Shown piece after piece: positions 1-24,690 of a DNA stretch of 26,748 bases. A program made the position numbers and the translations under genes. The notes under the pieces were generated by a model. That model saw nothing but the letters and a program-made list of their open reading frames with translations, was not told the DNA's origin and made no database searches. The stretch is from a virus: positions 1-26,748 of IMG/VR virus record IMGVR_UViG_3300032050_000684, one strand, 5' to 3'. Each line of letters begins with the position of its first letter. Positions within the stretch are counted from its first letter, which is position 1.

Positions 1-622
1 TTTGTAGATCTGTGCCAAACACGTAGTTAGGTTGGCTGTCGGATATGTACTTAGGCGTTTTGTTGTCGAGAAATCTACATGTATAACCCACAATCTGGTC
101 ATTATGGGTAAATGGAATTATCACATGTGGCCTGGTCCAGTGGATGCCATCATTTTGTATCTGCACCATTACAGGAAAGTCTTCCGGAACCTTCCTTGAA
201 CGCACGTAGTCTCTGTAGCTGCCTTCGTCCATCAACAGTTCAGCATATGGTGGCAAGTCACGTTCTTCAAACTCAACTGCGCTTAGTGCGTTAACTATCT
301 TCTGTCGATCTTCTAATATGCCGTTGATGCTTCTATGACGCAGACTTTCCAAGTTGAGATAATCAATCTCAGCATCAGGTACACCAAGCCAGTTCAAGAG
401 CCTGCGGGCCTTAAAGCTCACTGAGCGGCCAAGGATAAAACTAGCGGTGTATCCACAGTTGAAGCAGTGATAACTCCAACCTTGTTCAGTGGCCTTGAGT
501 CCACCACGTTGTCTTTTGTCTATGTTGTTGCCATTATGGCCACAGCAAACCGCATTGAAGCTAATCCATCCCGATGGAGTTTGTTTGCGTTTGCTGGGTA
601 AGTAAGAGACAATGTCTAGCAT
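1..622 (-). CDS. DNA primase, T4 gp61-like (3' end cut by window edge)
   Basis: Reading leftward from ATG at 622 the frame stays open for 207 codons to the window edge, so only the N-terminal part is present. The protein starts MLDIVSYLPS and carries an N-terminal zinc-binding pattern: CCGH at residues 26-29 and CFNC at 53-56, with a basic, glycine-rich stretch between. This is the arrangement of phage primase zinc domains. Further on, a GYTCRFLDNKTPKYISD segment resembles the start of the TOPRIM-type catalytic region of primases of marine T4-like phages. Primases synthesise the RNA primers for lagging-strand replication. There is no Shine-Dalgarno motif before the ATG; a sigma70-like promoter ends 6 nt upstream, so a leaderless transcript is likely. 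The primase call is from family knowledge; the catalytic half lies outside the window. Confidence 0.8.
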   Translation of the reverse strand, partial: MLDIVSYLPSKRKQTPSGWISFNAVCCGHNGNNIDKRQRGGLKATEQGWSYHCFNCGYTASFILGRSVSFKARRLLNWLGVPDAEIDYLNLESLRHRSINGILEDRQKIVNALSAVEFEERDLPPYAELLMDEGSYRDYVRSRKVPEDFPVMVQIQNDGIHWTRPHVIIPFTHNDQIVGYTCRFLDNKTPKYISDSQPNYVFGTDLQ

Positions 623-628
623 CTGTAT

Positions 629-657
629 AGTATAACAGATCTATCAACAAAGATCAA
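629..657 (-). promoter_or_regulatory. sigma70-type early promoter of the primase gene, leaderless geometry
   Basis: On the minus strand TTGATC (652-657) and TATACT (629-634) are separated by 17 nt. Only 6 nt lie between the -10 hexamer and the ATG at 622, so the expected start of transcription falls on the start codon. The -35 box touches the stop codon of the upstream virion gene at 658. Confidence 0.65.
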
Positions 658-3484: not shown

Positions 3485-4174
3485 TTACCATCCTGCTTGT
3501 TTTAGAATCTCTTTGGCATACTCTTGGTCTGCTGAATAGTCATGAAATTTCTTTTGCCATGCATCCGAGTCAATATAAGGCCATATCATTGTGATCTGTG
3601 TTGTGTCTAGTGTGTTCAAGAACTCTTGGCCCGACGCTGAATTGTAGATTACCCAGGGTGAGATGCGTCCTGTTGTGACAGCATGACATAGTGCATTAGT
3701 ATTGCCATATCTTAAACAGTCATGTGCTGGGTGTGTGGTCTTTTCACTCCAGTCAATGCTGTACTCTACTGCACGGGCTAGAGCGTCTGCCACAGCTTCT
3801 ACCTTTAAGTAGAACAACAAGTACTCTGTGTAGATTTTATCACTGCACCAATGATCAATTTTCTTGTTGTTCTTGAGCAGCCAAGTCATAAACTGTGCAG
3901 GGTTAATAGCTCGTGTGTTGACACAGTAACGACCAAACTTTACAAAGGCTCGATAATAAGGGCTGTCACAAAAGTCCTCAAATGTTTTTAACTTTGCTGA
4001 TCCTTGTGCCATTTCATAGAACTTGATATAGGCCTGGAATCCCAGTTGTACACCACGCTCACTTTGTTCCATGCGCCTGCGCTTGGGCTCGCACATGTGT
4101 ACTGCAATAGAGCTTTCTCTTGCAAACTCTTTTTTGCAAAACTCACACGTGAACTTACTTGTTGTCTCTGCCAT
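3485..4174 (-). CDS. zinc-finger protein of unknown function in the replication operon
   Basis: From the ATG at 4174 the protein is 229 aa; an upstream in-frame TTG at 4195 would add seven residues but is a weaker start. An N-terminal Cys2-His-Cys finger is visible: C10-x2-C13-x12-H26-x-C28, followed by a basic patch PKRRR. The remaining 190 residues are helical, rich in aromatic residues and not recognised (it includes CVNTRAINPAQFMTWLLKNN). The start overlaps the end of the preceding gene by 20 nt, and 1 nt separates its stop from the polymerase-like gene. Binding to DNA or to replisome partners is plausible from the finger and context, but is not shown. Confidence 0.65.
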   Translation of the reverse strand: MAETTSKFTCEFCKKEFARESSIAVHMCEPKRRRMEQSERGVQLGFQAYIKFYEMAQGSAKLKTFEDFCDSPYYRAFVKFGRYCVNTRAINPAQFMTWLLKNNKKIDHWCSDKIYTEYLLFYLKVEAVADALARAVEYSIDWSEKTTHPAHDCLRYGNTNALCHAVTTGRISPWVIYNSASGQEFLNTLDTTQITMIWPYIDSDAWQKKFHDYSADQEYAKEILKQAGW

Positions 4175-4607
4175 GTGCTCTAATGTATTGATCAAGTTCT
4201 TTTTTGGTTGTTATTGCTGCCATGACATCTATCTCGTCTGACTTGTAGTGTGGGAACAACTCTGCCAATTGTTTTTTTATGCTGCCGACACCTGCTTCTT
4301 TTTTCTTGGGAGCAATCCAGTTGTGTCTCATTGCACCTAGTCCTGGACTCACAGTTGTGGCCATGAGCCATTGCAGTTTACGATGTCGGGTTGAGTTGAT
4401 GTTAAAAAAGTTTTTGTTCAATCTCTCGTTGGTAGAAATCACATAAAACTCTTGTAGGTCTCTTGAGCCTTCAACTGCCGATCCCCAACGTATCATGAGA
4501 AACGGAGCAAACTTCTTGCGTTCGTCTTCTGTTAAATCGTCATAGAAGTCTCTGACCTTGTGGTCAAACATTTTCATCTCGTTAGCAATGCTTAGTTTAT
4601 CAGTCAT
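4155..4607 (-). CDS. possible clamp-loader small subunit (gp62-like)
   Basis: A 150-residue protein, first gene of a three-gene early operon. It has FAPFLMIRWGSAVEGSRDLQ at residues about 33-52, then STNERLNKNFF, a KLQWLMATTVSPGLG stretch, and a basic IAPKKKE segment. This order (aromatic-basic P-F-I-R-x-x-S, then N-E-x-x-N, then a K-L-Q helix) resembles the small clamp-loader subunit gp62 of T4-like phages, which with gp44 loads the sliding clamp. The match is from memory of the family pattern and is not strong; treat it as a candidate. The ATG at 4607 has no Shine-Dalgarno motif and lies 6 nt after a TATAAT box, so translation is probably leaderless. Confidence 0.45.
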   Translation of the reverse strand: MTDKLSIANEMKMFDHKVRDFYDDLTEDERKKFAPFLMIRWGSAVEGSRDLQEFYVISTNERLNKNFFNINSTRHRKLQWLMATTVSPGLGAMRHNWIAPKKKEAGVGSIKKQLAELFPHYKSDEIDVMAAITTKKELDQYIRAHGRDNK

Positions 4608-4613
4608 ATTACT

Positions 4614-4641
4614 ATTATAACACTATGTTAACAAAAGTCAA
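4614..4641 (-). promoter_or_regulatory. sigma70-type early promoter, leaderless geometry
   Basis: TTGACT (4636-4641) and TATAAT (4614-4619) on the minus strand, spacer 16 nt, with 6 nt between the -10 box and the ATG at 4607. The -35 element lies inside the last codons of the upstream SGNH-like gene. It should drive the operon of 4607, 4174 and 3483. Confidence 0.7.
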
Positions 4642-5281
4642 TACCCAGTGTTTCTCCCACTGCTTGCCTAAACTTATCTTGCCAATCACGATCATACACG
4701 TGATACCCGTGTAATGTGGGGGTAGGGTAATCCCAAAGATTTGCGGATATCTTGTTTGCAAGGTATTGCTCTAGCTCATTTGGAATGCTCATATTTTTGA
4801 ACACATGTTCTGGCAATTCAGTACCGCCAAGTGTGTAAGCAAATGTTATGTTGTTTGTTTTTAAAAAATTCAAAGTAGACAGCACAACATGATATGACTG
4901 TAGTGCTAAAAAATCTGTTGCTACCAATCCATAATAATGATCTACAAATTTTTTTTCCACAGGATATGCGTCAGACATTATTGAATGTTTCCACCGTTTG
5001 GCATAGTGCTCAGCTAAAGTCAGATCTGGAGTAACTGTCACCGAATGTGTAGAGTCTCGATCAAATTCAAATCTAGAATTTCTAGTAAAACTCACAACCA
5101 CATGATTGTGCCCAAGTGCTACTGCGTAACGTACTTGATTTGCAATCAAAACATTTGAACATGCACCTACTGCCAATATTTTTTTATGTAGGTCAGGCGG
5201 CAATTGGTCAGTCCAATGAATACCAGTTTGATCAGTAGTCATATAACTATCTCCACAAATGGCTAACTTTATGTTACTCAT
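4628..5281 (-). CDS. SGNH/GDSL hydrolase-like protein, copy 1
   Basis: 217 residues starting with a beta strand and a block-I motif, KLAICGDSYM (G10-D11-S12), the nucleophile site of SGNH hydrolases. A second block, VVVSFTRNSRFEFDRD at about 81-96, takes the position of the family's GxND block. The C-terminus has YHVYDRDWQDKF, shared in outline with the second copy at 6179-6793 (FHINNQDWQAEF). The usual Asp three residues before the catalytic His is not visible, so hydrolase activity is uncertain. SGNH enzymes remove acyl groups from glycans or lipids. The gene overlaps the preceding 88-aa gene by 8 nt and is probably read with it. Confidence 0.6.
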   Translation of the reverse strand: MSNIKLAICGDSYMTTDQTGIHWTDQLPPDLHKKILAVGACSNVLIANQVRYAVALGHNHVVVSFTRNSRFEFDRDSTHSVTVTPDLTLAEHYAKRWKHSIMSDAYPVEKKFVDHYYGLVATDFLALQSYHVVLSTLNFLKTNNITFAYTLGGTELPEHVFKNMSIPNELEQYLANKISANLWDYPTPTLHGYHVYDRDWQDKFRQAVGETLGIDFC

Positions 5282-5540
5282 TGGTATTTTTTAAATTATA
5301 CAGTATCTCAAGTTGATCCCATAACTCCCGCATACCCGGATCCGCTTCGGCCATTTGTTGTATGGCTAGAATCCTAGCAACACGACTTTGTGGTAGCCCG
5401 AGTATTTTATTTTCTTGATTCACTTCGTATCCAACTACATGTCGTTCTGTTGCACCAAACTCACGTGCGTATACTACAGGACCAACACGTTCATATATCA
5501 AAGGAACATCTGGTCTAAGACTGCCCATACTTGTAGCCAT
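5274..5540 (-). CDS. small unknown protein (88 aa)
   Basis: Not recognised. The ATG at 5540 is preceded by the coding end of the 48-aa gene (26-nt overlap); a second ATG four codons on is possible. The N-terminal half has YERVGPVVYAREFGATERHV, the C-terminal half is an acidic helix (QQMAEADPGMRELWDQLE). No membrane segment or known motif is visible. YERVGxxxYAREFGA-type segments occur in small phage proteins of the T4-like group, but a function is not known to me. Overlaps on both sides show it is part of the 6161-to-4628 transcription unit. Confidence 0.6.
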   Translation of the reverse strand: MATSMGSLRPDVPLIYERVGPVVYAREFGATERHVVGYEVNQENKILGLPQSRVARILAIQQMAEADPGMRELWDQLEILYNLKNTNE

Positions 5541-5661
5541 ATTGATTATGTGCCCAACGTAGGAAACGTTCTAGACCTTCTCGATCATCTGGATAACTTT
5601 CCAGATAGATGCGACTCAATCGATTAATTATTTCAAATAGTTCAGGTTCAGTGTAGGTCAT
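5515..5661 (-). CDS. very small unknown protein (48 aa)
   Basis: An open frame from ATG at 5661 to TAG at 5515, encoding MTYTEPELFEIINRLSRIYL followed by an acidic helix and RFLRWAHNQYGYKYGQS. The start codon shares one base with the stop codon of the 166-aa gene (TAATG), and its 3' end overlaps the 88-aa gene by 26 nt. Such tight coupling in a co-directional series argues that it is real although short. It fills what would otherwise be a 120-nt gap. Function unknown. Confidence 0.6.
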   Translation of the reverse strand: MTYTEPELFEIINRLSRIYLESYPDDREGLERFLRWAHNQYGYKYGQS

Positions 5662-6161
5662 TACCAAGCCTTGTTATAATCTACAATCTCGCAGTTGCGA
5701 CTAATGTCCTTGACAAAATAAACACAGTCTGGCTCGTCACCGTCGGTGATCGGAACAGCTAACATTTGCCCATTTTTAAGTTTAGGAGCATACCAACTCA
5801 CTTCATGATACACATCAAGAATTTCAATATCAGGAAAGCTAGGACGGAAACTGGTAAGAGGATTGAATTGGAATACTTTGAATCCACGATCGTTGATACT
5901 AGTTAAGGGCAACACTTCCAAGTCACCAATCTCGGGTTCGCCTATTAGTATCTGCCAGTCCATGGGCATTTTGATTGTGTTATCGCCTATGCGCAACACC
6001 AAGGCCGGTGAGTTAAAACTTTCCAAGAAGATCAAGGGAATAAAATGATAGTCAGGATCTGCTGGATTAGAGTTGTCTAGTATGGCAAACCTCATGTCAT
6101 CCACCTCTTCAGGTAAATGGTCAAGGTCGTAGTGTTGATTGTCTAGTGTTAATATTCGCAT
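5661..6161 (-). CDS. conserved-looking phage protein of unknown function (166 aa)
   Basis: An acidic, beta-rich protein with a proline-phenylalanine centre (QFNPLTSFRPSFPDIEILD) and an ending CVYFVKDISRNCEIVDYNKAW. The strings MDWQILIGEPEIGDLEVLPL and LKNGQMLAVPI look like a protein I associate with marine T4-like phages, where it is found near replication genes, but its role is not known to me. No signal peptide or membrane helix is visible. The start at 6161 has no ribosome site; the -10 box of a promoter ends 6 nt before the ATG. Confidence 0.65.
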   Translation of the reverse strand: MRILTLDNQHYDLDHLPEEVDDMRFAILDNSNPADPDYHFIPLIFLESFNSPALVLRIGDNTIKMPMDWQILIGEPEIGDLEVLPLTSINDRGFKVFQFNPLTSFRPSFPDIEILDVYHEVSWYAPKLKNGQMLAVPITDGDEPDCVYFVKDISRNCEIVDYNKAW

Positions 6162-6167
6162 AGTTGT

Positions 6168-6196
6168 ATATTACAGTATTATTTTGTTTTTGTCAA
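6168..6196 (-). promoter_or_regulatory. sigma70-type early promoter, leaderless geometry
   Basis: TTGACA (6191-6196) and TAATAT (6168-6173) on the minus strand with 17 nt between them and 6 nt from the -10 box to the ATG at 6161. An overlapping TATACA would give a 19-nt spacer and is less likely. The element lies over the last codons and the stop of the SGNH-like gene at 6179. Confidence 0.6.
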
Positions 6197-6793
6197 CAGA
6201 GTTTGTACATTATTTGCAAACTCAGCTTGCCAATCTTGATTGTTGATATGGAATATAGGACGGTTCTCATGTGGCTGTTGCCATATGTCTTGAGTAAGTT
6301 CGCAGTATGCATATTGTTCAAACACAAAATTAAATCTTGTAGCGTCATCATCTAATATTAAATGATTTTTCTCAGCAGAGTTAAACAACAAACGATGCCA
6401 AACAAACGGTATGTTGTGCTTGCGCAAGGTTTCAAATATAAAAGATATTTGTGTGCATGCTAAAATATGTCTATATTTTGCCGACATCACTGATAGCCAG
6501 ACTTTGTAGAATAATTTTTGATCTGAATTTAATTCCCAATCGTGACAGCTGGAATATGTTTTTGATCCGTATTCAAATGCGATTCGAGCTTCATCAGTTA
6601 GTCCCACAACTACCACTGCAGGATTGTATGCAAGCCCATCCATCAACTGCTCTGAAATCCAGGCCAATGATGCACCACCTTTGGCCAAGTTTACTACACG
6701 GTATTCAGGCAGCATCTCGCTCCAGTGTTCACCTGGATAGCGTTCGTCCTGTGACATAAAACTATCGCCAATGACCAGCATAGTGGGTTTCAT
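6179..6793 (-). CDS. SGNH/GDSL hydrolase-like protein, copy 2
   Basis: 204 residues from the ATG at 6793; an upstream in-frame GTG at 6808 is possible but the ATG forms a 4-nt ATGA overlap with the uvsW stop and is preferred. Block I is MLVIGDSFM (G9-D10-S11). A VVVGLTDEARIAFEY block follows the position seen in copy 1, and the C-terminus FHINNQDWQAEF aligns with YHVYDRDWQDKF of copy 1. The two genes are thus paralogues with low identity. As in copy 1 the Asp expected three residues before the His is absent. Downstream of uvsW and coupled to it. Substrate unknown; an esterase or deacylase role is inference from the family. Confidence 0.6.
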   Translation of the reverse strand: MKPTMLVIGDSFMSQDERYPGEHWSEMLPEYRVVNLAKGGASLAWISEQLMDGLAYNPAVVVVGLTDEARIAFEYGSKTYSSCHDWELNSDQKLFYKVWLSVMSAKYRHILACTQISFIFETLRKHNIPFVWHRLLFNSAEKNHLILDDDATRFNFVFEQYAYCELTQDIWQQPHENRPIFHINNQDWQAEFANNVQTLLTKTK

Positions 6794-8259
6794 TTGATTT
6801 TCATCCACTCTAATTTCTCTGCCGAGAACGGATAGTTGGCTTCCTTGTAGAATTGTTTACGCTTGGTCAAGTGTCGTTTGGCAAACTTGCAGGTTGATGT
6901 TATGTCCCAGATCTGAACATGATCTTTATCTTCTGCTTTGCGTATGCCACGGCCAATTGACTGGATGACTCTAACAAAGCTCTTGCCAGGTTCAATGAGT
7001 ACCAGATTAAAAATACGGGGAATGTTAATACCAACAGCAGCCACACCATAAGTTGCTACAATAATTTTACCTGTTGCATCAGCCACTTCGTCATATTCAT
7101 CTTGCCTGGCTTTTGCTTTGGTTGCTCCGGATACAAACACAGCACCATCACCTAGACGTTCTACCAATTGACGTCCACACTCTGTTCTGTCCACCAGCAC
7201 AAGTGTGTTGCCTGTTTCGTTGACTTTACGCACAAGGTCTGCCATGGTATCAAGGCGTCCTGATTCCTCAAGCAAGTATTTAAGCTCACTTTGATAGTTT
7301 GAATATTCCACGTGATCTACCAACTGCACAATGTTAACGTGGCACTGAGCCAGCACACCACGATCCTGAAGTTCACTTGCACTGAGCTTGCTAACAACAG
7401 GACCAAGTCCAACCAATAATGCTTGGCTCTCAAACTTCTCTTTGGGTATGGTTCCGGTCAACCCCCAACGAATTGGCACTCTAGCCATGATGCCTGTTAG
7501 CAGGGTTTTGAGTGCATCTGCTTTGGCCATGTGTACTTCATCTACAATAACACATACCACATCTTCCATGAAGTCTTGTATGGTAAACTTTGCTGTGCCT
7601 TCTTTGGAGTCTTTAAGCAGGTTATTTAGACTTTGCCAAGTGCAAATGGTATGTGTCTTGCCGTAGTCTTTACGGTCACCAAAGTACACACCCACATCCA
7701 GACCCAAGTTGACATAGTCCTTTTCTGTTTGTGTTACCAAGCTCTTGTTGGGCACAATAACAATTGACCTACCATAGGGTTGTACGTTCCAACTCAAGGC
7801 CGCTGTCATGATAGTCTTGCCTGCACCTGTGGCCACTTCTTGTATGCATTGCGGGTTCTGCAGGTAGTTGTTGATGATCTCTACTTGGTAGTCTCGCAAC
7901 ACAATGGGTTGACCTTCTTGTGGATGTCCTTTGGGCCATAGTGTGTCAGCAAAAGTGTCTTCCCGCATCTCAGCAAACTCAAATGTGGTTGAGTACTCAC
8001 GTTGGTCATCTAGTTCAATGTCGTAGTTGTACTGCTCCAGGATAGGAATGATCTCTGGCAACAAGTTGGTGTAGGTGCTACCACCCAGTTGGAAGTAGGC
8101 AATCTTGCCATCCCATCTGCCTAGTCTCACCGCAGGCAAATACCTTGCTGCCGGATTTTCGTACTTGAAAGTATTAACCAGTTTCTTACGCACATCCAAG
8201 TCAAGACCCTCTAGCTTGATATTGACCTCATCACGTATTTGTATTGTGCATTGTTTCAT
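6790..8259 (-). CDS. uvsW: UvsW-type superfamily 2 DNA/RNA helicase
   Basis: 489 residues, close to T4 UvsW (about 500). The N-terminal 100 residues contain the T4-type dsDNA recognition region (YLPAVRLGRWDGKIAYF). Helicase motifs follow in order: LRDYQ at 121-125, Walker A ATGAGKT at 143-149, DEVH at 240-243, LTGT at 267-270, and motif VI QSIGRGIRK at 433-441. UvsW unwinds branched DNA and R-loops and helps switch T4 from origin-dependent to recombination-dependent replication. The ATG at 8259 matches the family's N-terminus and no ribosome site precedes it; the promoter's -10 box ends 6 nt upstream. Ends in a 4-nt overlap with the SGNH-like gene. Confidence 0.95.
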   Translation of the reverse strand: MKQCTIQIRDEVNIKLEGLDLDVRKKLVNTFKYENPAARYLPAVRLGRWDGKIAYFQLGGSTYTNLLPEIIPILEQYNYDIELDDQREYSTTFEFAEMREDTFADTLWPKGHPQEGQPIVLRDYQVEIINNYLQNPQCIQEVATGAGKTIMTAALSWNVQPYGRSIVIVPNKSLVTQTEKDYVNLGLDVGVYFGDRKDYGKTHTICTWQSLNNLLKDSKEGTAKFTIQDFMEDVVCVIVDEVHMAKADALKTLLTGIMARVPIRWGLTGTIPKEKFESQALLVGLGPVVSKLSASELQDRGVLAQCHVNIVQLVDHVEYSNYQSELKYLLEESGRLDTMADLVRKVNETGNTLVLVDRTECGRQLVERLGDGAVFVSGATKAKARQDEYDEVADATGKIIVATYGVAAVGINIPRIFNLVLIEPGKSFVRVIQSIGRGIRKAEDKDHVQIWDITSTCKFAKRHLTKRKQFYKEANYPFSAEKLEWMKIK

Positions 8260-8265
8260 GTCTAT

Positions 8266-8294
8266 AGTATATACTTATTGCAAGCAGAAGTCAA
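8266..8294 (-). promoter_or_regulatory. sigma70-type promoter of uvsW, leaderless geometry, fused to a terminator
   Basis: TTGACT (8289-8294) and TATACT (8266-8271), spacer 17 nt, 6 nt to the ATG at 8259. The first two bases of the -35 box are also the end of the T-tract of the terminator just upstream, so transcription of the previous unit stops and that of uvsW begins within a few bases. Confidence 0.65.
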
Positions 8295-8325
8295 AAAGAC
8301 AGACACCTTTTTAAGGGTGTCTGTC
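8293..8325 (-). terminator. intrinsic terminator between the AAA+ unit and uvsW
   Basis: A perfect 10-bp stem (GACAGACACC, 8298-8307, pairing with 8316-8325) with an 8-nt loop. On the minus strand it is followed by TTTTT (8293-8297); on the plus strand no T-run follows. It ends the transcription unit of the AAA+ ATPase and the two tiny genes. Confidence 0.85.
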
Positions 8326-8584: not shown

Positions 8585-9607
8585 TTAGGCACTCTTCATG
8601 CATGTTGTCTCTGACATGCGCTTCCAGTTGTTAGGGAAGCTCTTGCGCAAGTCTGCAATCTTGAGCGCCATGCGCAAGGAAACCTCACGCAGGCGTTCCT
8701 TGTTAACATGCATAAAGTCAATAATGTCGTCTTGTGCGTACTCATTAAAGTCGTAGTCTGCAAACAACACACCATCTTTGGCAATCTGTTTGATACGCAA
8801 CAACTTGTCCCGCATGGTGTCCAGGGTCAAGTCCAAGTAGTGGCAACGACTTTGGAGAGCGTCCAAGTGGTCACGCAACTTTTGACTTTTCATTTTGTCA
8901 AACTTTAAGTTTGTGATAAAGATGACACTGCCTTTAAACTCAAAACGGTCTGGAATGCCTTCTCTGCGCAAAGCACTAGACTCTGACAACCAGGAGATAA
9001 CACGCTTCTTACCAGAGTCCAAGGCACCCTTGAGCAGGTTAAGAGCAACGTCATCTAACAAGATGCTGTCACAGTCGTCAAACACTACGACGCTGTTGGC
9101 GTCACTGTATTTGTACAGAGTTTGGTACAAGCCGATAGGAGTGGCACTGCCTTTAACTACCTCTGCACGGAGTCGTTTGCCTGCCAACTTGTCAAACAAG
9201 CAGGCTTTCTCAATCTCTGTCTCGACGCCGTAGCTCTTGCCTACACCTGGAGGGCCGCTCACAATCATAGCACGGATGTCACCTGACACGGTGGCCTTTG
9301 TCATCTCGTGCAGGATGTCAAAACGCTCACGGATACGATCCATGGCCTCGTCATCTGTCTCGACTACTGCGGGCTTCTCAAAATGTACTGTATTATCTTG
9401 CACGGCATCTCCTGTTACATATTCAAAATTTTGGATGGAATCTACCTTGATACGGATTGTATCTGGGCAGTTGGGAAAGTTACCATCATTCTTGACAGTA
9501 ACATAATTGCCTTTGGCGCCAGAGGCATAGCCTGACACTAAAGTAAAAGCAATATTGCGGACGGGCTTGTTACGATACTCACCCTTAATGATACGAATGG
9601 CACTCAT
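8585..9607 (-). CDS. AAA+ ATPase
   Basis: 340 residues. An N-terminal beta-rich region (1-75) is followed by an AAA+ module: Walker A GPPGVGKS at 118-125, Walker B VVVFDDCD at 173-180, sensor-1-like FITN at 230-233, and a helical lid with LREVSLRMALKIADL near the C-terminus. Such proteins remodel or load other proteins using ATP. The SRC arginine-finger signature of clamp-loader gp44 is not seen in the usual place, although LQSRCHYLDL near residue 250 could serve as the arginine finger region, so gp44 is not excluded but not favoured. Has an AAGGAGC ribosome site and a consensus promoter. The two tiny genes follow directly. Confidence 0.8.
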   Translation of the reverse strand: MSAIRIIKGEYRNKPVRNIAFTLVSGYASGAKGNYVTVKNDGNFPNCPDTIRIKVDSIQNFEYVTGDAVQDNTVHFEKPAVVETDDEAMDRIRERFDILHEMTKATVSGDIRAMIVSGPPGVGKSYGVETEIEKACLFDKLAGKRLRAEVVKGSATPIGLYQTLYKYSDANSVVVFDDCDSILLDDVALNLLKGALDSGKKRVISWLSESSALRREGIPDRFEFKGSVIFITNLKFDKMKSQKLRDHLDALQSRCHYLDLTLDTMRDKLLRIKQIAKDGVLFADYDFNEYAQDDIIDFMHVNKERLREVSLRMALKIADLRKSFPNNWKRMSETTCMKSA

Positions 9608-9637: not shown

Positions 9638-9666
9638 ATTATAGCAGAAGTCGAATTAAGCGTCAA
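9638..9666 (-). promoter_or_regulatory. sigma70-type early promoter of the AAA+ gene
   Basis: TTGACG (9661-9666) and TATAAT (9638-9643), spacer 17 nt, minus strand. The leader is about 25 nt and contains AAGGAGC before the ATG at 9607. The -35 overlaps the final codons of the 133-aa gene. It belongs to a set of four similar promoters in this region. Confidence 0.8.
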
Positions 9667-10057
9667 CCTGCACAGCCTCAATTCCAAACTGTTCGAGCAA
9701 CACGGTACGGCAGGCATCTACTGTACGTTTGGTTACTACAACCTTGCCGCCCATAAACCCCACATAGAGATGCCTGTGTGCTACAAACTTGATCTCACCG
9801 TCTGCACCTGTGTGCTTTTGACGGACGACTGGTTTGGCTGTCACTGTCTTAGCAGGTGCCTTTGTGGGCTTTTCTGCTTTGGCAGGCACTGCCGTGGGCA
9901 TTGGTGCTACCGACTTAGGTGCGGCATTAGCAAATCCATGCTTCTTGTCGTACTTGGCAATATCTGCTGGAGTCTTCCCCCAGGTAGCTAACAGACGTTT
10001 GACTTCTGTTCCGGGCAATTGGTTCCAATGGATGATTTTATCAGTCCAGTTTTGCAT
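9656..10057 (-). CDS. unknown protein with an Ala/Pro/Lys linker (133 aa)
   Basis: Three parts are visible: an N-terminal helical segment (residues 1-45, containing WNQLPGTEVKRLLATWGKT), a low-complexity linker rich in Ala, Pro, Lys and Thr (about 46-80), and a C-terminal beta domain (IKFVAHRHLYVGFMGGKVVV then a DACRTVLLEQFGIEAV helix). The two end domains may bind separate partners joined by a flexible tether. No family is recognised. It has its own consensus promoter and a GGAGCC ribosome site, so it is an early gene. Confidence 0.65.
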   Translation of the reverse strand: MQNWTDKIIHWNQLPGTEVKRLLATWGKTPADIAKYDKKHGFANAAPKSVAPMPTAVPAKAEKPTKAPAKTVTAKPVVRQKHTGADGEIKFVAHRHLYVGFMGGKVVVTKRTVDACRTVLLEQFGIEAVQVDA

Positions 10058-10086
10058 TGTTGGCTCCGTTTAGTTACTATACAAGT

Positions 10087-10115
10087 ATTATAGCAGTTTG
10101 AGAATTATTGGTCAA
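10087..10115 (-). promoter_or_regulatory. consensus sigma70 early promoter
   Basis: TTGACC (10110-10115), 17 nt, TATAAT (10087-10092) on the minus strand, followed by a leader with CGGAGCC before the ATG at 10057. The 45 bases around it are nearly identical to the promoter at 10318-10346, and the -35 covers the last codons and stop of the upstream gene. Confidence 0.88.
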
Positions 10116-10287
10116 CCGGAGCAAACATCTTGCTACCCTGCACCATGAATACCCTGAAAGCTGCCATGGTTTTTTCACTGTAGATCATTGCACCATTCTG
10201 CTGAATGTCTTGCAAGAGTTCTAAAAATCCCATGCCCAAAAACTCTTGTTCTTTGTTGAGTTGGGCGATTGCTGTGGCTATCTGCAT
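10105..10287 (-). CDS. small unknown protein (60 aa)
   Basis: A mostly helical protein (IATAIAQLNKEQEFLGMGFL, then QDIQQNGAMIYSEKTMAAF) with no recognised domain or membrane segment. It has an AAGGAGCC ribosome site before the ATG at 10287 and its own consensus promoter. The terminal DQ codons and stop are written within the -35 region of the next promoter. Early phage proteins of this size often bind host enzymes; nothing in the sequence tells which. Confidence 0.6.
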   Translation of the reverse strand: MQIATAIAQLNKEQEFLGMGFLELLQDIQQNGAMIYSEKTMAAFRVFMVQGSKMFAPVDQ

Positions 10288-10317
10288 CTCTGGCTCCTTT
10301 TTAATTACTATACAAGT

Positions 10318-10346
10318 ATTATAGCAGTTTGGGAATTATTGGTCAA
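10318..10346 (-). promoter_or_regulatory. consensus sigma70 early promoter
   Basis: TTGACC (10341-10346), 17 nt, TATAAT (10318-10323), minus strand; leader with AAGGAGCC before the ATG at 10287. Near-copy of the promoter at 10087-10115. Confidence 0.88.
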
Positions 10347-10381
10347 ATGGTAAACTGTGGCTTTTTTACAACAAAAACTGC

Positions 10382-10591
10382 TTATTTTTTAAGCACTTCG
10401 TAAAAACGCTGGTTGATAATGTCCATTTCCTCTTTGGAAACGTAAAAATCTGTAGTGGGATCGTAGTAGGCGCCCTCTTTGTTGTCATAATACAACACTT
10501 GGCCTGAGAAGTTGAACGGACCTTCGAGTCCCTTGCGTGGCTCGTACTTGGTACGCATCATGTCTGTGGTGTCAACAACCTTGTAACCCAT
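10382..10591 (-). CDS. small unknown protein (69 aa)
   Basis: Contains FSGQVLYYDNKEGAYYDPTT then DFYVSKEEMDIINQRFYEV, an acidic, tyrosine-rich sequence with a helical end. The YDPTTDFYVS string reminds me of small conserved phage proteins, but no function is known to me. A TAAGGAGTT ribosome site lies before the ATG at 10591, and a sigma70 promoter precedes it. A 35-nt A/T-rich stretch separates its stop from the next promoter without an obvious terminator stem. Confidence 0.65.
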   Translation of the reverse strand: MGYKVVDTTDMMRTKYEPRKGLEGPFNFSGQVLYYDNKEGAYYDPTTDFYVSKEEMDIINQRFYEVLKK

Positions 10592-10621
10592 CTTGAACTC
10601 CTTATTTCTTACAATACTTCT

Positions 10622-10650
10622 ATTGTAGCAAAACGGGATTTATTGGTCAA
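10622..10650 (-). promoter_or_regulatory. sigma70-type early promoter
   Basis: TTGACC (10645-10650), 17 nt, TACAAT (10622-10627), minus strand. The -35 and part of the spacer (TTGACCAATAA) match the two other TTGACC promoters. It lies just before the end of the glycosyltransferase-like gene at 10656 and would isolate the early genes from that unit. Confidence 0.8.
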
Positions 10651-12187: not shown

Positions 12188-12196
12188 ATTGACGAA

Positions 12197-12204
12197 TATT
12201 TAAT
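12197..12204 (-). promoter_or_regulatory. late-type octamer for the 12187 gene
   Basis: Minus strand ATTAAATA, two changes from TATAAATA, 9 nt before the ATG at 12187. It faces an identical octamer on the other strand, so the 34-nt gap is nearly palindromic. Confidence 0.45.
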
Positions 12205-12207
12205 GCT

Positions 12208-12215
12208 ATTAAATA
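12208..12215 (+). promoter_or_regulatory. late-type octamer for the 12222 gene
   Basis: Plus strand ATTAAATA, 6 nt before the ATG at 12222. By T4 spacing transcription would start within a base of the start codon; there is no ribosome site. Confidence 0.45.
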
Positions 12216-12221
12216 CTCCAT

Positions 12222-14648: not shown

Positions 14649-14660
14649 GTTTTATATGTA

Positions 14661-14668
14661 TATAAATA
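14661..14668 (+). promoter_or_regulatory. T4 consensus late promoter (TATAAATA)
   Basis: A perfect TATAAATA 30 nt before the ATG at 14699, leaving a leader of about 24 nt with AAGGGA as ribosome site. It should drive the three forward genes 14699, 15238 and 15770. Confidence 0.8.
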
Positions 14669-14698
14669 TTTAGTGAACAATATTAATCAAGGGAAACA

Positions 14699-21937: not shown

Positions 21938-22073
21938 AGTGTTTCTCCTTGTTAAGTTGCCTATGTTATATGCCTATCTAAAATTTTTAGATGTGTAGTT
22001 GCCTGTGCATACAAGTTGTATTGTATACGAATGTATTTAGCATCACAATAGTAAAAGGCAAAGTTTGTTGGCT

Positions 22074-22081
22074 GATAAGTA
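22074..22081 (+). promoter_or_regulatory. late-type octamer, leaderless geometry
   Basis: GATAAGTA, two changes from TATAAATA, 5 nt before the ATG at 22087. No ribosome site precedes the gene. Confidence 0.4.
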
Positions 22082-22086
22082 TCGCT

Positions 22087-24690
22087 ATGAACAAATATGT
22101 TATTTGGTACCCTGGAGGCAATGCCGAGGGGACTGCATGGATTGAGTATCGGTTATCTGAACGACTAGGGATTCCGTTGTTTGATCAGTCTGAAATACAC
22201 TGCACTCAGTATCCTCCTATCTTGGACATTTACGACGATAGAAAAAAAATTGCATTCATTCGACACGAAAGTATTCGATTATCAACTACAGAAAGTTGGT
22301 ATACTGACATGCTGGAGTCTGATGTATCATGTCACGACTATGATTTGGTCATAGTCTACACCTCCGAACCAGTGGACATGGACTGGAATACGTATCGCAA
22401 AGAAGTTGAAACTCAGTTAGGAACTGCCCGAATTGTATATCTAATAGGCGGGCATGTAGGAGATGAGAATCCTGATCCTAGTATTTGTTATGTTCAACAT
22501 AGTTTTTTTAATTTTGTGTCATGTGGCAATTGTCATCCTGAACACCACGGGCAACCAACAGCACACAAGACTTACTTGTTTGATGCACTGATGGGCACGT
22601 TAAAAGTTCCTAGACTTTGGTTGTATTATAATCTTCGAGACAGCGAGTTTTATGATCAAACGTTGTTTAGTATACATCCATTTCCCAACGCTGAGCTCAA
22701 CCATTCAAATCAGCAAGCAGTTAAAAATATGTTGCCTGACCTGGTTGCCAAATACGGCGAAGTCAACGACTATGAAACTCCCGAATTGTTTGCACTAGAA
22801 GAAACACGTATACAACAATTCAAGCAAAAAGCAGTCACACTCAATGATAAGTATTCAAATCGTAGAATTCCTGATTGGGAACTAGGACGTATGCCAGCAT
22901 CAACCTTGATGCCATGGACCATTTACGATAACTCCTGGTACAGCATTGTTAGTGAAACTAATCCAGTATGGAACAACATCAATTTTCTAACAGAAAAAAC
23001 AGCCAAGTGTTTGTTAGCCCAACGTATATTTGTTATGTTCAATGCGCCCGGAACTCTGAAATATTTGCGCAGTCTAGGATTCCAAACATTCCATAGCGAC
23101 ATTATTGATGAAAGCTACGACGATCATGGCGACCACCAAGTTCGATGGAGTATGGCATGGGAACAGGTCAAAAAGTTAGCGGCAATGGATCCAGTTAAAG
23201 TATATGAATACTATCAACCAGTATTGGAATTCAATTCCAAGTTAATGCAAACATACTCCACTGACGAATTAGCAAGAATTGCTGACTTTGTGTACCAACA
23301 TAAATTTTTAAGTGATGTGTTCCCGTTACATGCTGATAAAACATTTTATCGAGCTGACCAAAATGGTCTTCCGTACACAAGTCCTTTGCATATAAAAAAT
23401 ACTGAATACTATGTGTGGGATCCTCACTGTTGGTGGGAGTTTAATCGAGGAATTATAAAAGGCATAGAGTTTTTCCCAAACGCAGAAATTTCTCGAGAAT
23501 CAAATCCTCCATCTGGGCGTCTAGCTCAGCAACTTGCTCGGGATTCAAGAAAAAAAATTGCAATGTTGTTCTACGAAAAAATCCGTCGACCTTGGACTCA
23601 GCCTAACATTCCTTTTGATCCAAAGAATACCATTGCTGACCTGCACTTGGGATGGGCTGATCTAGTTATTGTGTACACGTCGGAACAGATGAAAGACTGG
23701 TGGCCAGTTATCTACGGCGAAGTATGTAGGCAATTACACACTGACCGGATTGTGCTCATGGTAGCAGGCTACAACAATTATACGGATCCTGATCCAAATT
23801 TTATATTTGCCAATCATCATAGCTTTTTATCATACGTGGCATCTGGCAACGAGTTTATTGATGTGTCTGAGCAAACAGTACCTTTTAGAAAATACATGTT
23901 TGATTGTTTAATAGGCACAGTCAAACCCATTAGGCTTGGATTGTTTTATCAGTTGTTAGATAGCGAGTTTGCCGATCAAGCATTGATTAATTTACAACCA
24001 AATCCGCATTGCGACCCTGACTGGAAGGCAGTTGAGCAACTGGTGCCCGGTAAGGTTGCTACCCATGGTACTATTATAGATTATGCTAGTCCTGCATTAT
24101 TAGATTTGGAAGAAGATGTAGTAAAGCAATTTAAAATTAGCACACAAAATGGATCTGCCGTTGAACGGTATTCAACTAGGCTACTAGATCGTTCAGGATT
24201 TGGTCTTCCAAATAATCAACTGTTGATGAGTAACATAGTTCCTTGGAAAATTTATCAGAGCAGTTGGTACAGCATTGTGTGTGAAACTGCTGATGCTGGT
24301 TCTTCAAACTTGTTCATTACTGAAAAAATAGGTAAGTGTTTGTTTGCCAAACGAATTTTTATATTAATAGCAGGAGTTGGTATTCTTCGATATCTACGTA
24401 GCCTAGGGTTTCGCACATTCCACGGAGATATCGTTGACGAAAGCTACGACGACGAGCCCAATGACCGACTACGATTAAACATGGCCTGGGCACAGATTGA
24501 ACGCTTGCACAAGACTGATCCTAGATTTGTTTATGCACATTTCCGAGACGTGCTTGATCATAATCATCAGATCATGCTTGGGTGGACTGACCAACAATTA
24601 AAGGACATATCGCAGTTTTTACAAAAAAGATTAAACTATGTTTGCTCTAGAGCAAACTATAAAAACGTTCACGGACTGTTTCCAAAGTAA
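22087..24690 (+). CDS. internally duplicated protein, possible GT10-like glycosyltransferase (867 aa)
   Basis: The start at 22087 (MNKYVIWYPGGNAEG) is chosen over upstream in-frame ATGs because a late octamer lies 5 nt before it. The chain consists of two related halves with a period of about 440 residues: (1) DLVIVYTSE in both, (2) NPDPSI / DPDPNF, (3) LRDSEFYDQ / LLDSEFADQ, (4) PWTIYDNSWYSIVSET / PWKIYQSSWYSIVCET, (5) FLTEKTAKCLLAQRIF / FITEKIGKCLFAKRIF, (6) YLRSLGFQTFHSD / YLRSLGFRTFHGD, (7) DESYDD in both. The (4)-(5) pattern, S-x-x-E...TEK, resembles the nucleotide-sugar site of fucosyltransferase family 10. Function otherwise unknown; a C-terminal tail KNVHGLFPK ends it. Confidence 0.8.
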   Translation: MNKYVIWYPGGNAEGTAWIEYRLSERLGIPLFDQSEIHCTQYPPILDIYDDRKKIAFIRHESIRLSTTESWYTDMLESDVSCHDYDLVIVYTSEPVDMDWNTYRKEVETQLGTARIVYLIGGHVGDENPDPSICYVQHSFFNFVSCGNCHPEHHGQPTAHKTYLFDALMGTLKVPRLWLYYNLRDSEFYDQTLFSIHPFPNAELNHSNQQAVKNMLPDLVAKYGEVNDYETPELFALEETRIQQFKQKAVTLNDKYSNRRIPDWELGRMPASTLMPWTIYDNSWYSIVSETNPVWNNINFLTEKTAKCLLAQRIFVMFNAPGTLKYLRSLGFQTFHSDIIDESYDDHGDHQVRWSMAWEQVKKLAAMDPVKVYEYYQPVLEFNSKLMQTYSTDELARIADFVYQHKFLSDVFPLHADKTFYRADQNGLPYTSPLHIKNTEYYVWDPHCWWEFNRGIIKGIEFFPNAEISRESNPPSGRLAQQLARDSRKKIAMLFYEKIRRPWTQPNIPFDPKNTIADLHLGWADLVIVYTSEQMKDWWPVIYGEVCRQLHTDRIVLMVAGYNNYTDPDPNFIFANHHSFLSYVASGNEFIDVSEQTVPFRKYMFDCLIGTVKPIRLGLFYQLLDSEFADQALINLQPNPHCDPDWKAVEQLVPGKVATHGTIIDYASPALLDLEEDVVKQFKISTQNGSAVERYSTRLLDRSGFGLPNNQLLMSNIVPWKIYQSSWYSIVCETADAGSSNLFITEKIGKCLFAKRIFILIAGVGILRYLRSLGFRTFHGDIVDESYDDEPNDRLRLNMAWAQIERLHKTDPRFVYAHFRDVLDHNHQIMLGWTDQQLKDISQFLQKRLNYVCSRANYKNVHGLFPK
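22087..24690 (+). repeat. internal tandem duplication within the 867-aa gene
   Basis: Unit 1 spans about 22087-23400 and unit 2 about 23404-24690. Anchors show a spacing of 1317 nt (DLVIVYTSE at 22342 and 23659) and 1329 nt (TEK region at 22993 and 24322). The halves are well diverged in nucleotide sequence, so the duplication is old and both units are kept. Confidence 0.8.

Follow-up and report, generated by a model that had tools for sequence, protein, structure and literature searches.

We describe a conserved class of early genes, many of them for DNA replication and repair, that we conclude to be leaderless, with predicted mRNA starts, in a group of environmental jumbo phages represented by a 26,748-nt stretch of viral DNA (IMG/VR record IMGVR_UViG_3300032050_000684, positions 1 to 26,748, hereafter the window). 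The best explanation, and in our judgement a quite likely one, is that sigma-70 promoters put the transcription start (+1) on the A of the start codon and that the first genes of early transcription units would be expressed as leaderless mRNAs. The promoter geometry, the missing Shine-Dalgarno (SD) motif, an excess of promoters 6 nt before start codons, coding constraint from codon 2 onwards, the conservation of the spacing and the exchange of the gene at an operon head can all be read from the DNA itself. Judged by its gene content, which includes a UvsW-like helicase, a UvsX-like recombinase, a UvsY-like mediator, a single-strand binding protein and a primase, the window is a piece of a T4-related jumbo phage.

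Four predicted leaderless promoters in the window

The initial annotation had pointed to four genes, starting at 622, 4607, 6161 and 8259, each preceded by a -35 box, a spacer of 16-17 nt, a -10 box and exactly 6 nt before the ATG, without an SD motif. Re-measuring the geometry gave the same layout at all four, and no SD core was found upstream of any of them.

1-622, minus strand: DNA primase-like gene, cut by the window end (phrog_47, E 1.5e-15), with its ATG at 622; a full-length homologue has 327 amino acids (aa)
629-657, minus strand: predicted leaderless promoter of the primase gene; TTGATC (657-652), 17 nt, TATACT (634-629), ATACAG, ATG
4155-4607, minus strand: gene for a 150-aa protein with a partial phrog_11758 profile match
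4614-4641, minus strand: predicted leaderless promoter of gene 4607; TTGACT (4641-4636), 16 nt, TATAAT (4619-4614), AGTAAT, ATG
5661-6161, minus strand: gene for a 166-aa protein, phrog_11279, kept in cultured jumbo phages (profile match and relatives)
6168-6196, minus strand: predicted leaderless promoter of the 166-aa gene; TTGACA (6196-6191), 17 nt, TAATAT (6173-6168), ACAACT, ATG
6790-8259, minus strand: UvsW-like DNA helicase gene (uvsW), with its predicted leaderless ATG at 8259
8266-8294, minus strand: predicted leaderless promoter of uvsW; TTGACT (8294-8289), 17 nt, TATACT (8271-8266), ATAGAC, ATG
8293-8325, minus strand: intrinsic terminator, hairpin and U-run (-17.7 kcal/mol, z -5.0), overlapping the uvsW -35 box by 2 nt

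The 6-nt spacing exceeds chance

Promoters were scored with a matrix of approximate Escherichia coli sigma-70 frequencies, and d denotes the number of nt between the end of the -10 hexamer and the start codon. Since genes were called as greedy longest open reading frames (ORFs) with a crude choice of start, we relied on control ATGs, shuffles and conservation tests. In the window, 5 of 35 gene starts have a promoter at d = 6 with a score of at least 10.5, while dinucleotide shuffles of its upstream regions averaged 0.036, gave at most 1 and reached 5 in 0 of 1000 trials. These five starts are the four promoters listed above and an 899-aa ORF at 21991. The latter (21991-24690) was set aside as a leaderless case: it is probably spurious, with neither a relative in the compared records nor a match to any PHROG.

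Four long related records, G001-G004, were compared (the label G005 refers only to the 12.5-kb locus L030). At a score of at least 9, a promoter at d = 6 precedes 10/379, 9/386, 4/289 and 2/96 gene starts in G001 to G004, respectively (25/1150 in total), versus 5/3325, 3/3027, 0/2114 and 1/959 control internal ATGs (9/9425 in total), so that the -10/6 nt/ATG layout is above shuffles in the window and above control ATGs in the four records. A gene-free count likewise placed ATG at d = 6 39 times, compared with a mean of 12.5 per distance. Taken naively, this last count is weakened by ATA, which is enriched at d = 6 as well (44 times) because SD-led transcripts have A-T as their first bases there too; an ATG at +1 is thus no proof by itself, and coding and conservation tests are needed. 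The A-T enrichment of the SD class at the same distance also serves as an internal calibration of the start site, and transcripts of both classes seem to begin with A-T at d = 6.

The best named matches of the helicase and the 166-aa protein are Sinorhizobium phage Phosso, Pseudomonas phage PA5oct and its kin, and Agrobacterium phage Atu_ph07, with Escherichia phage 121Q lower among them, and the order of uvsW with the phrog_11279 166-aa gene close downstream is shared by the window (8259 then 6161), Phosso, Atu_ph07, PA5oct, 121Q, SCTP-2 and XaC1. By the same method, none of the 408 gene starts of PA5oct and none of the 573 of 121Q has a promoter at d = 6, and 400 kb of Phosso have 2/463 at score 9, both weak, and none at score 12. 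Upstream of the uvsW and 166-aa orthologues in six cultured phages, no promoter at d 5-8 scored above 5.4. This near-absence in cultured relatives makes the predicted leaderless class a trait of the environmental group and not of the whole jumbo-phage lineage.

Spacing and start codon are conserved in diverged relatives

For each gene family we took the 80 best loci from among at least 498 relatives in viral_contigs and reduced them to distinct upstream sequences, a sampling in which close relatives are over-represented. The 166-aa gene has 41 distinct upstreams, with 27 promoters at d 6, four at d 7, seven at d 8 and three under the threshold, and a DexA-like exonuclease has 42 (from 80 loci), with 22 at d 6, 18 at d 5 and two other. 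For the primase, where two loci without room upstream were left out, 78 loci gave 43 distinct upstreams: 33 at d 6, one at d 7, one at d 9, four at d 6 just under the threshold and four with GTG in place of ATG. UvdE is more mixed, with 42 of 59 distinct upstreams (80 loci) at d 5-7 and the others leadered or without a clear promoter. Relatives differ in promoter sequence but keep the distance from promoter to first codon. In the primase family (ATG = +1), positions -35 to -33, -15, -14, -12, -11, -9 and -7, the columns expected of a sigma-70 promoter, are fixed and most others variable, and the six bases before the ATG occur in 15 different forms. Altogether, 13 gene families are leaderless by prediction in at least two compared records, and these hold 40 of the 58 candidates. 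A 273-aa family that appeared leaderless in three records was dropped, its promoter lying inside conserved coding sequence.

In UvdE, a 66-row tree shows 9 changes of the leaderless state, compared with 16.1 for shuffled labels, so the state is inherited yet able to switch.

No SD core occurs in any of the distinct upstreams of three families (0/37, 0/49 for the primase and 0/24; 0/110 together), and over codons 2-21 the third position is about 4 to 10 times as variable as the second (0.404/0.047, 0.515/0.128 and 0.420/0.040), the exonuclease being tested on the 24 distinct loci that align from residue 1. Coding constraint right after the ATG, combined with the lack of SD cores, indicates that the leaderless ATG is very probably the true start codon. 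ATG is the start in all compared 166-aa (37) and exonuclease (24) sequences; an exception among starts is locus L059, whose 166-aa gene has ATT and no ATG there.

Gene exchange at the head of the uvsW operon

In the window, the promoter upstream of uvsW (TTGACTT...TATACT) follows immediately on a strong terminator, and the U-run of this terminator reaches the -35 box. Among 41 distinct upstreams of the uvsW region, a leaderless head at d 5-7 is present in 30; uvsW holds this place in 11 of them and other genes do so in 19, namely a member of one 285-300-aa family in 17, a 183-aa gene in one and a 376-aa gene in one. L030 is counted under uvsW, since uvsW itself is leaderless there and the 273-aa head is a false positive. 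The remaining 11 of 41 have no leaderless head by this test, some being cut off by the contig end. Where the head gene is replaced, the start codon of the newcomer mostly lands at +1. As uvsW is leaderless when first and lies behind another gene when not, the predicted leaderless state is a property of the transcription-unit head no less than of the gene itself.

Two classes of sigma-70 gene starts

The window also carries early promoters that the initial annotation had contrasted with the leaderless ones, and its description of leaders with GGAG agreed with ours; we measured 29-30 nt from the -10 box to the ATG.

8585-9607, minus strand: SD-led, AAA ATPase-like gene (phrog_1250, profile match)
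9638-9666, minus strand: SD-class promoter of gene 9607; 30 nt to the ATG, AAGGAG in the leader; SD form in 18 of 18 distinct upstreams
10087-10115, minus strand: SD-class promoter of gene 10057; 29 nt to the ATG
10318-10346, minus strand: SD-class promoter of gene 10287; 30 nt to the ATG
10622-10650, minus strand: SD-class promoter of gene 10591; 30 nt to the ATG

Pooling promoters that score at least 12 from G001-G004 gave 110 gene starts with two separate peaks. At d 5-8 there are 26 gene starts, none with an SD motif, and at d 18-45 there are 74, of which 62 have one, with the second peak near 30 nt; d 0-4 holds five starts (0 SD) and d 9-17 another five (2 SD). The proposal of two start classes therefore stands, both with sigma-70 promoters, while the division of labour attached to it does not fully: the SD class is not confined to small host-takeover genes, and the products of genes 4607 and 6161 are not identifiable as replication genes. 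Among the 39 SD-led proteins scanned (of 54 found in G001 and G002), most have no assigned function, and the matches include a late sigma factor, ClpP protease, head maturation protease profiles, a porin, TctC, an HNH endonuclease and an AAA ATPase.

The identifiable leaderless genes are mostly DNA replication or repair enzymes, judged by their matches: primase, UvsW-like helicase, DexA-like exonuclease, SbcD-like nuclease, UvdE-like endonuclease and GIY-YIG nuclease. The SbcD-like case is weaker because its -35 box sits in the apparent end of the preceding gene. Further leaderless families, the 4607 and 6161 products included, are proteins without assigned function.

The SD-class promoters (9638-10650 in the window, and in many relatives) share a longer form close to TTGACCAATAATTCCCAATTTGCTATAAT, with an extended -10 box and a spacer sequence that recurs, which gives the impression of a single promoter cassette copied in front of many small genes. 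At G003:1571 and G003:48781, a predicted +1 AUG lies in frame 24 nt before the SD-led start, a possible case of dual starts.

Proposed mechanism and alternative explanations

In the mechanism we propose, host RNA polymerase would start RNA at the A of the ATG from host-type sigma-70 promoters, giving a leaderless mRNA for the first gene of several early transcription units, whose 5'-terminal AUG ribosomes may bind directly by the 70S route. Other early units, with leaders of about 25 nt containing AAGGAG, would use ordinary 30S initiation, and selection may keep the leaderless layout for SD-independent initiation of enzyme-type products.

Several observations weigh against this proposal. The mRNA starts are predicted and depend wholly on a matrix with approximate frequencies, and the -35 box of the 622 promoter (TTGATC) is poorer, with a score of 10.8. 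GTG stands at +1 in some primase relatives, and GTG is reported to be poor for leaderless translation in E. coli. Distances of 5, 7 and 8 nt occur, so the start may shift by 1-2 nt and leaders of 1-2 nt are possible. In four of the 11 upstreams that lack a leaderless uvsW-operon head (L018, G001, L007 and L011), 14 nt separate the uvsW-operon promoter from the ATG of a gene of some 375 aa that has no SD motif, which fits neither class, and some SD-led genes also have ATG at +1 (G003:1571 and G003:48781, minus strand). Finally, the promoter of gene 4607 is not conserved: it is clear only in L005 (with identical copies) and L004 (d 5), while the remaining orthologues either follow another gene or have a leader, and it is absent in the G001-G006 orthologues. 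L049 and L051 were not counted, their TATAAT at d 8 lying inside the apparent end of the preceding gene. With the 4607 promoter confined to near relatives, three of the four window cases pointed out by the initial annotation (622, 6161 and 8259) are conserved and one is a recent gain.

Why such a class is kept is a separate matter from its existence; the layout may rank expression, supply enzymes at a steady rate or do no more than save space. A by-product of compaction, in which gaps have shrunk to a terminator plus a promoter and a zero leader is the shortest workable layout without regulatory meaning, is quite possible, though short of probable. The gaps before leaderless starts have a middle value of 31 nt (31 cases), compared with about 60 nt for SD-led starts (55 cases), and the uvsW promoter overlaps the U-run of its terminator. 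Compaction nevertheless leaves unexplained why d is 6 instead of spread over 0-15 and why the same genes stay leaderless while their neighbours keep 30-nt SD leaders, and cultured relatives of similar size lack the class. It is also conceivable, though doubtful, that the phages are built to initiate translation through two parallel channels, one of them SD-dependent and the other leaderless. The leaderless channel, reserved for replication and repair operon heads, would keep working when SD initiation is altered or competed for. The disturbance would then come from bS21 of the phage, from large amounts of SD-led phage mRNA or from stress of the host, and head genes would be swappable only when their start codon lands at +1.

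The initial annotation had suggested that the two classes could time or rank translation as host ribosomes change. In such a timing model, leaderless genes would be preferred as the phage alters host ribosomes, for example through bS21 or loss of initiation factors, and class would set the order of expression; we consider this unlikely. bS21, which contacts the anti-SD region (as reported in PMC9723584), is encoded in G001 (85226-85381), G002 (200774-200929) and G003 (40860-41015), and leaderless translation depends differently on initiation factors according to the review PMC9031893. However, PA5oct also encodes bS21 yet lacks the leaderless class, which makes bS21 a hint at best, and it was not found in the 99.6-kb G004. 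Initiation factor (IF) 2 was found in none of six records, and a gene for an IF3 C-terminal domain occurs in 121Q as the sole one of the six, so the distribution of IF2, IF3 and bS21 was discarded as an explanation, showing no matching pattern. Moreover, both classes have sigma-70 promoters, and nothing in the sequence separates them by time.

Longer mRNAs, produced by read-through or from a promoter further upstream and thus carrying a leader, are improbable: several leaderless genes do lie close behind genes on the same strand, where read-through could add a second, longer mRNA, but a strong terminator stands directly before the uvsW promoter and the upstream sequence lacks an SD motif anyway. 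Coincidence, with phage promoters favouring an A-T start, ATG frequent at +1 and the real start codons elsewhere, is very improbable, for although ATA shows as much enrichment at d = 6 as ATG does (44 and 39) and a few SD-led genes do carry ATG at +1, coding constraint begins directly after the ATG, 110 of 110 distinct upstreams lack an SD core, and proteins conserved over many records have their N-terminus at this ATG.

Relation to known leaderless systems

Phage leaderless genes are mostly known as single cases such as lambda cI, the single repressor of a temperate phage, unlike the set of replication and repair genes found here across a whole clade of environmental jumbo phages. The two are alike in having a phage promoter with the start codon at +1 (PMC9031893; lambda phage is also named in PMC3160421). 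A paper on AR9 remarks briefly that transcripts of phages often lack a leader, and gives AR9 leaders of 26-491 nt (PMC5312081). Our literature search, mostly of freely accessible papers, found no published account of a conserved leaderless set in jumbo phages.

Among cellular genomes, Zheng et al. 2011 (PMC3160421) describe leaderless mRNAs with a TANNNT box some 12 bp upstream of the start codon, and all four window promoters have such a box, counted from its first T, before an ATG. The fixed primase columns at -12, -11 and -7 fit this box as well. Their cellular genes share with ours the -10 hexamer, the 6 nt to the ATG, the lack of an SD motif and the inheritance among close relatives, whereas we deal with jumbo phages, strong -35 boxes and a second, strongly SD-led class. 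The leaderless share they give averages 19.2% in Actinobacteria and 39.4% in Deinococcus-Thermus, with only 9/71 genomes in beta-Proteobacteria. Leaders in Lactococcus cremoris are described as bimodal, leaderless mRNAs making up about 13% and the other mode lying near 40 nt, with none of 4 to 14 nt (PMC10986495); the phages show a similar gap in promoter-ATG distance, although L. cremoris is a Gram-positive host with measured leaders and the phages have predicted ones and a probable betaproteobacterial host. The leaderless transcripts reported for Burkholderia cenocepacia (PMC4603805) are mapped cellular genes enriched in transcription regulators, not DNA enzymes as here. Leaderless mRNAs are mostly bound by 70S ribosomes and differ in their response to IF2, IF3 and initiator tRNA, according to a review (PMC9031893).

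With leaderless and SD-led genes side by side behind the same kind of promoter, two initiation routes become comparable within one infection, and the switches of state in UvdE and the swaps of head genes are natural experiments on the persistence of leaderless starts. For annotation, leaderless starts may be misplaced by gene finders in which SD motifs raise the score.

Host and additional features of the related phages

G002 (349 kb) carries a permuted transfer-messenger RNA (tmRNA) gene (L118:1128-1610) above the tmRNA_permuted and beta_tmRNA gathering scores, its tag read as ANDSQFALAA. From this gene and the porin and TctC matches among the SD-led genes, the host is probably betaproteobacterial, porin and TctC being typical of Betaproteobacteria. 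A search for counterparts of this tmRNA in the phage collection gave one weak match only, covering 15%, a host search in genome_contigs with the 166-aa protein gave no relative, and one by a degenerate pattern of the tmRNA tag gave no match.

The freshwater bS21 phages reported by Chen et al. 2022 (PMC9723584) reach 331 kb, their complete genomes having 31.0-33.7% G+C and predicted Bacteroidetes hosts. Like them, the phages studied here are large lake phages with bS21 in G001-G003, but these three records have 44.1-46.1% G+C, sigma-70 promoters and SD leaders and therefore look like another group, and G002 has a beta-type tmRNA.

Large tRNA arrays are also present, with 24 tRNA genes in G001 and 24 in G002 (L092:16868-17309, L093:1268-5113, L117:12941-15940 and L118:6074-9337). 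In the window, the divergent intergenic regions at 12188-12221 and 14649-14698 contain TAAATA-like boxes facing each other, which resemble T4-type late promoters.

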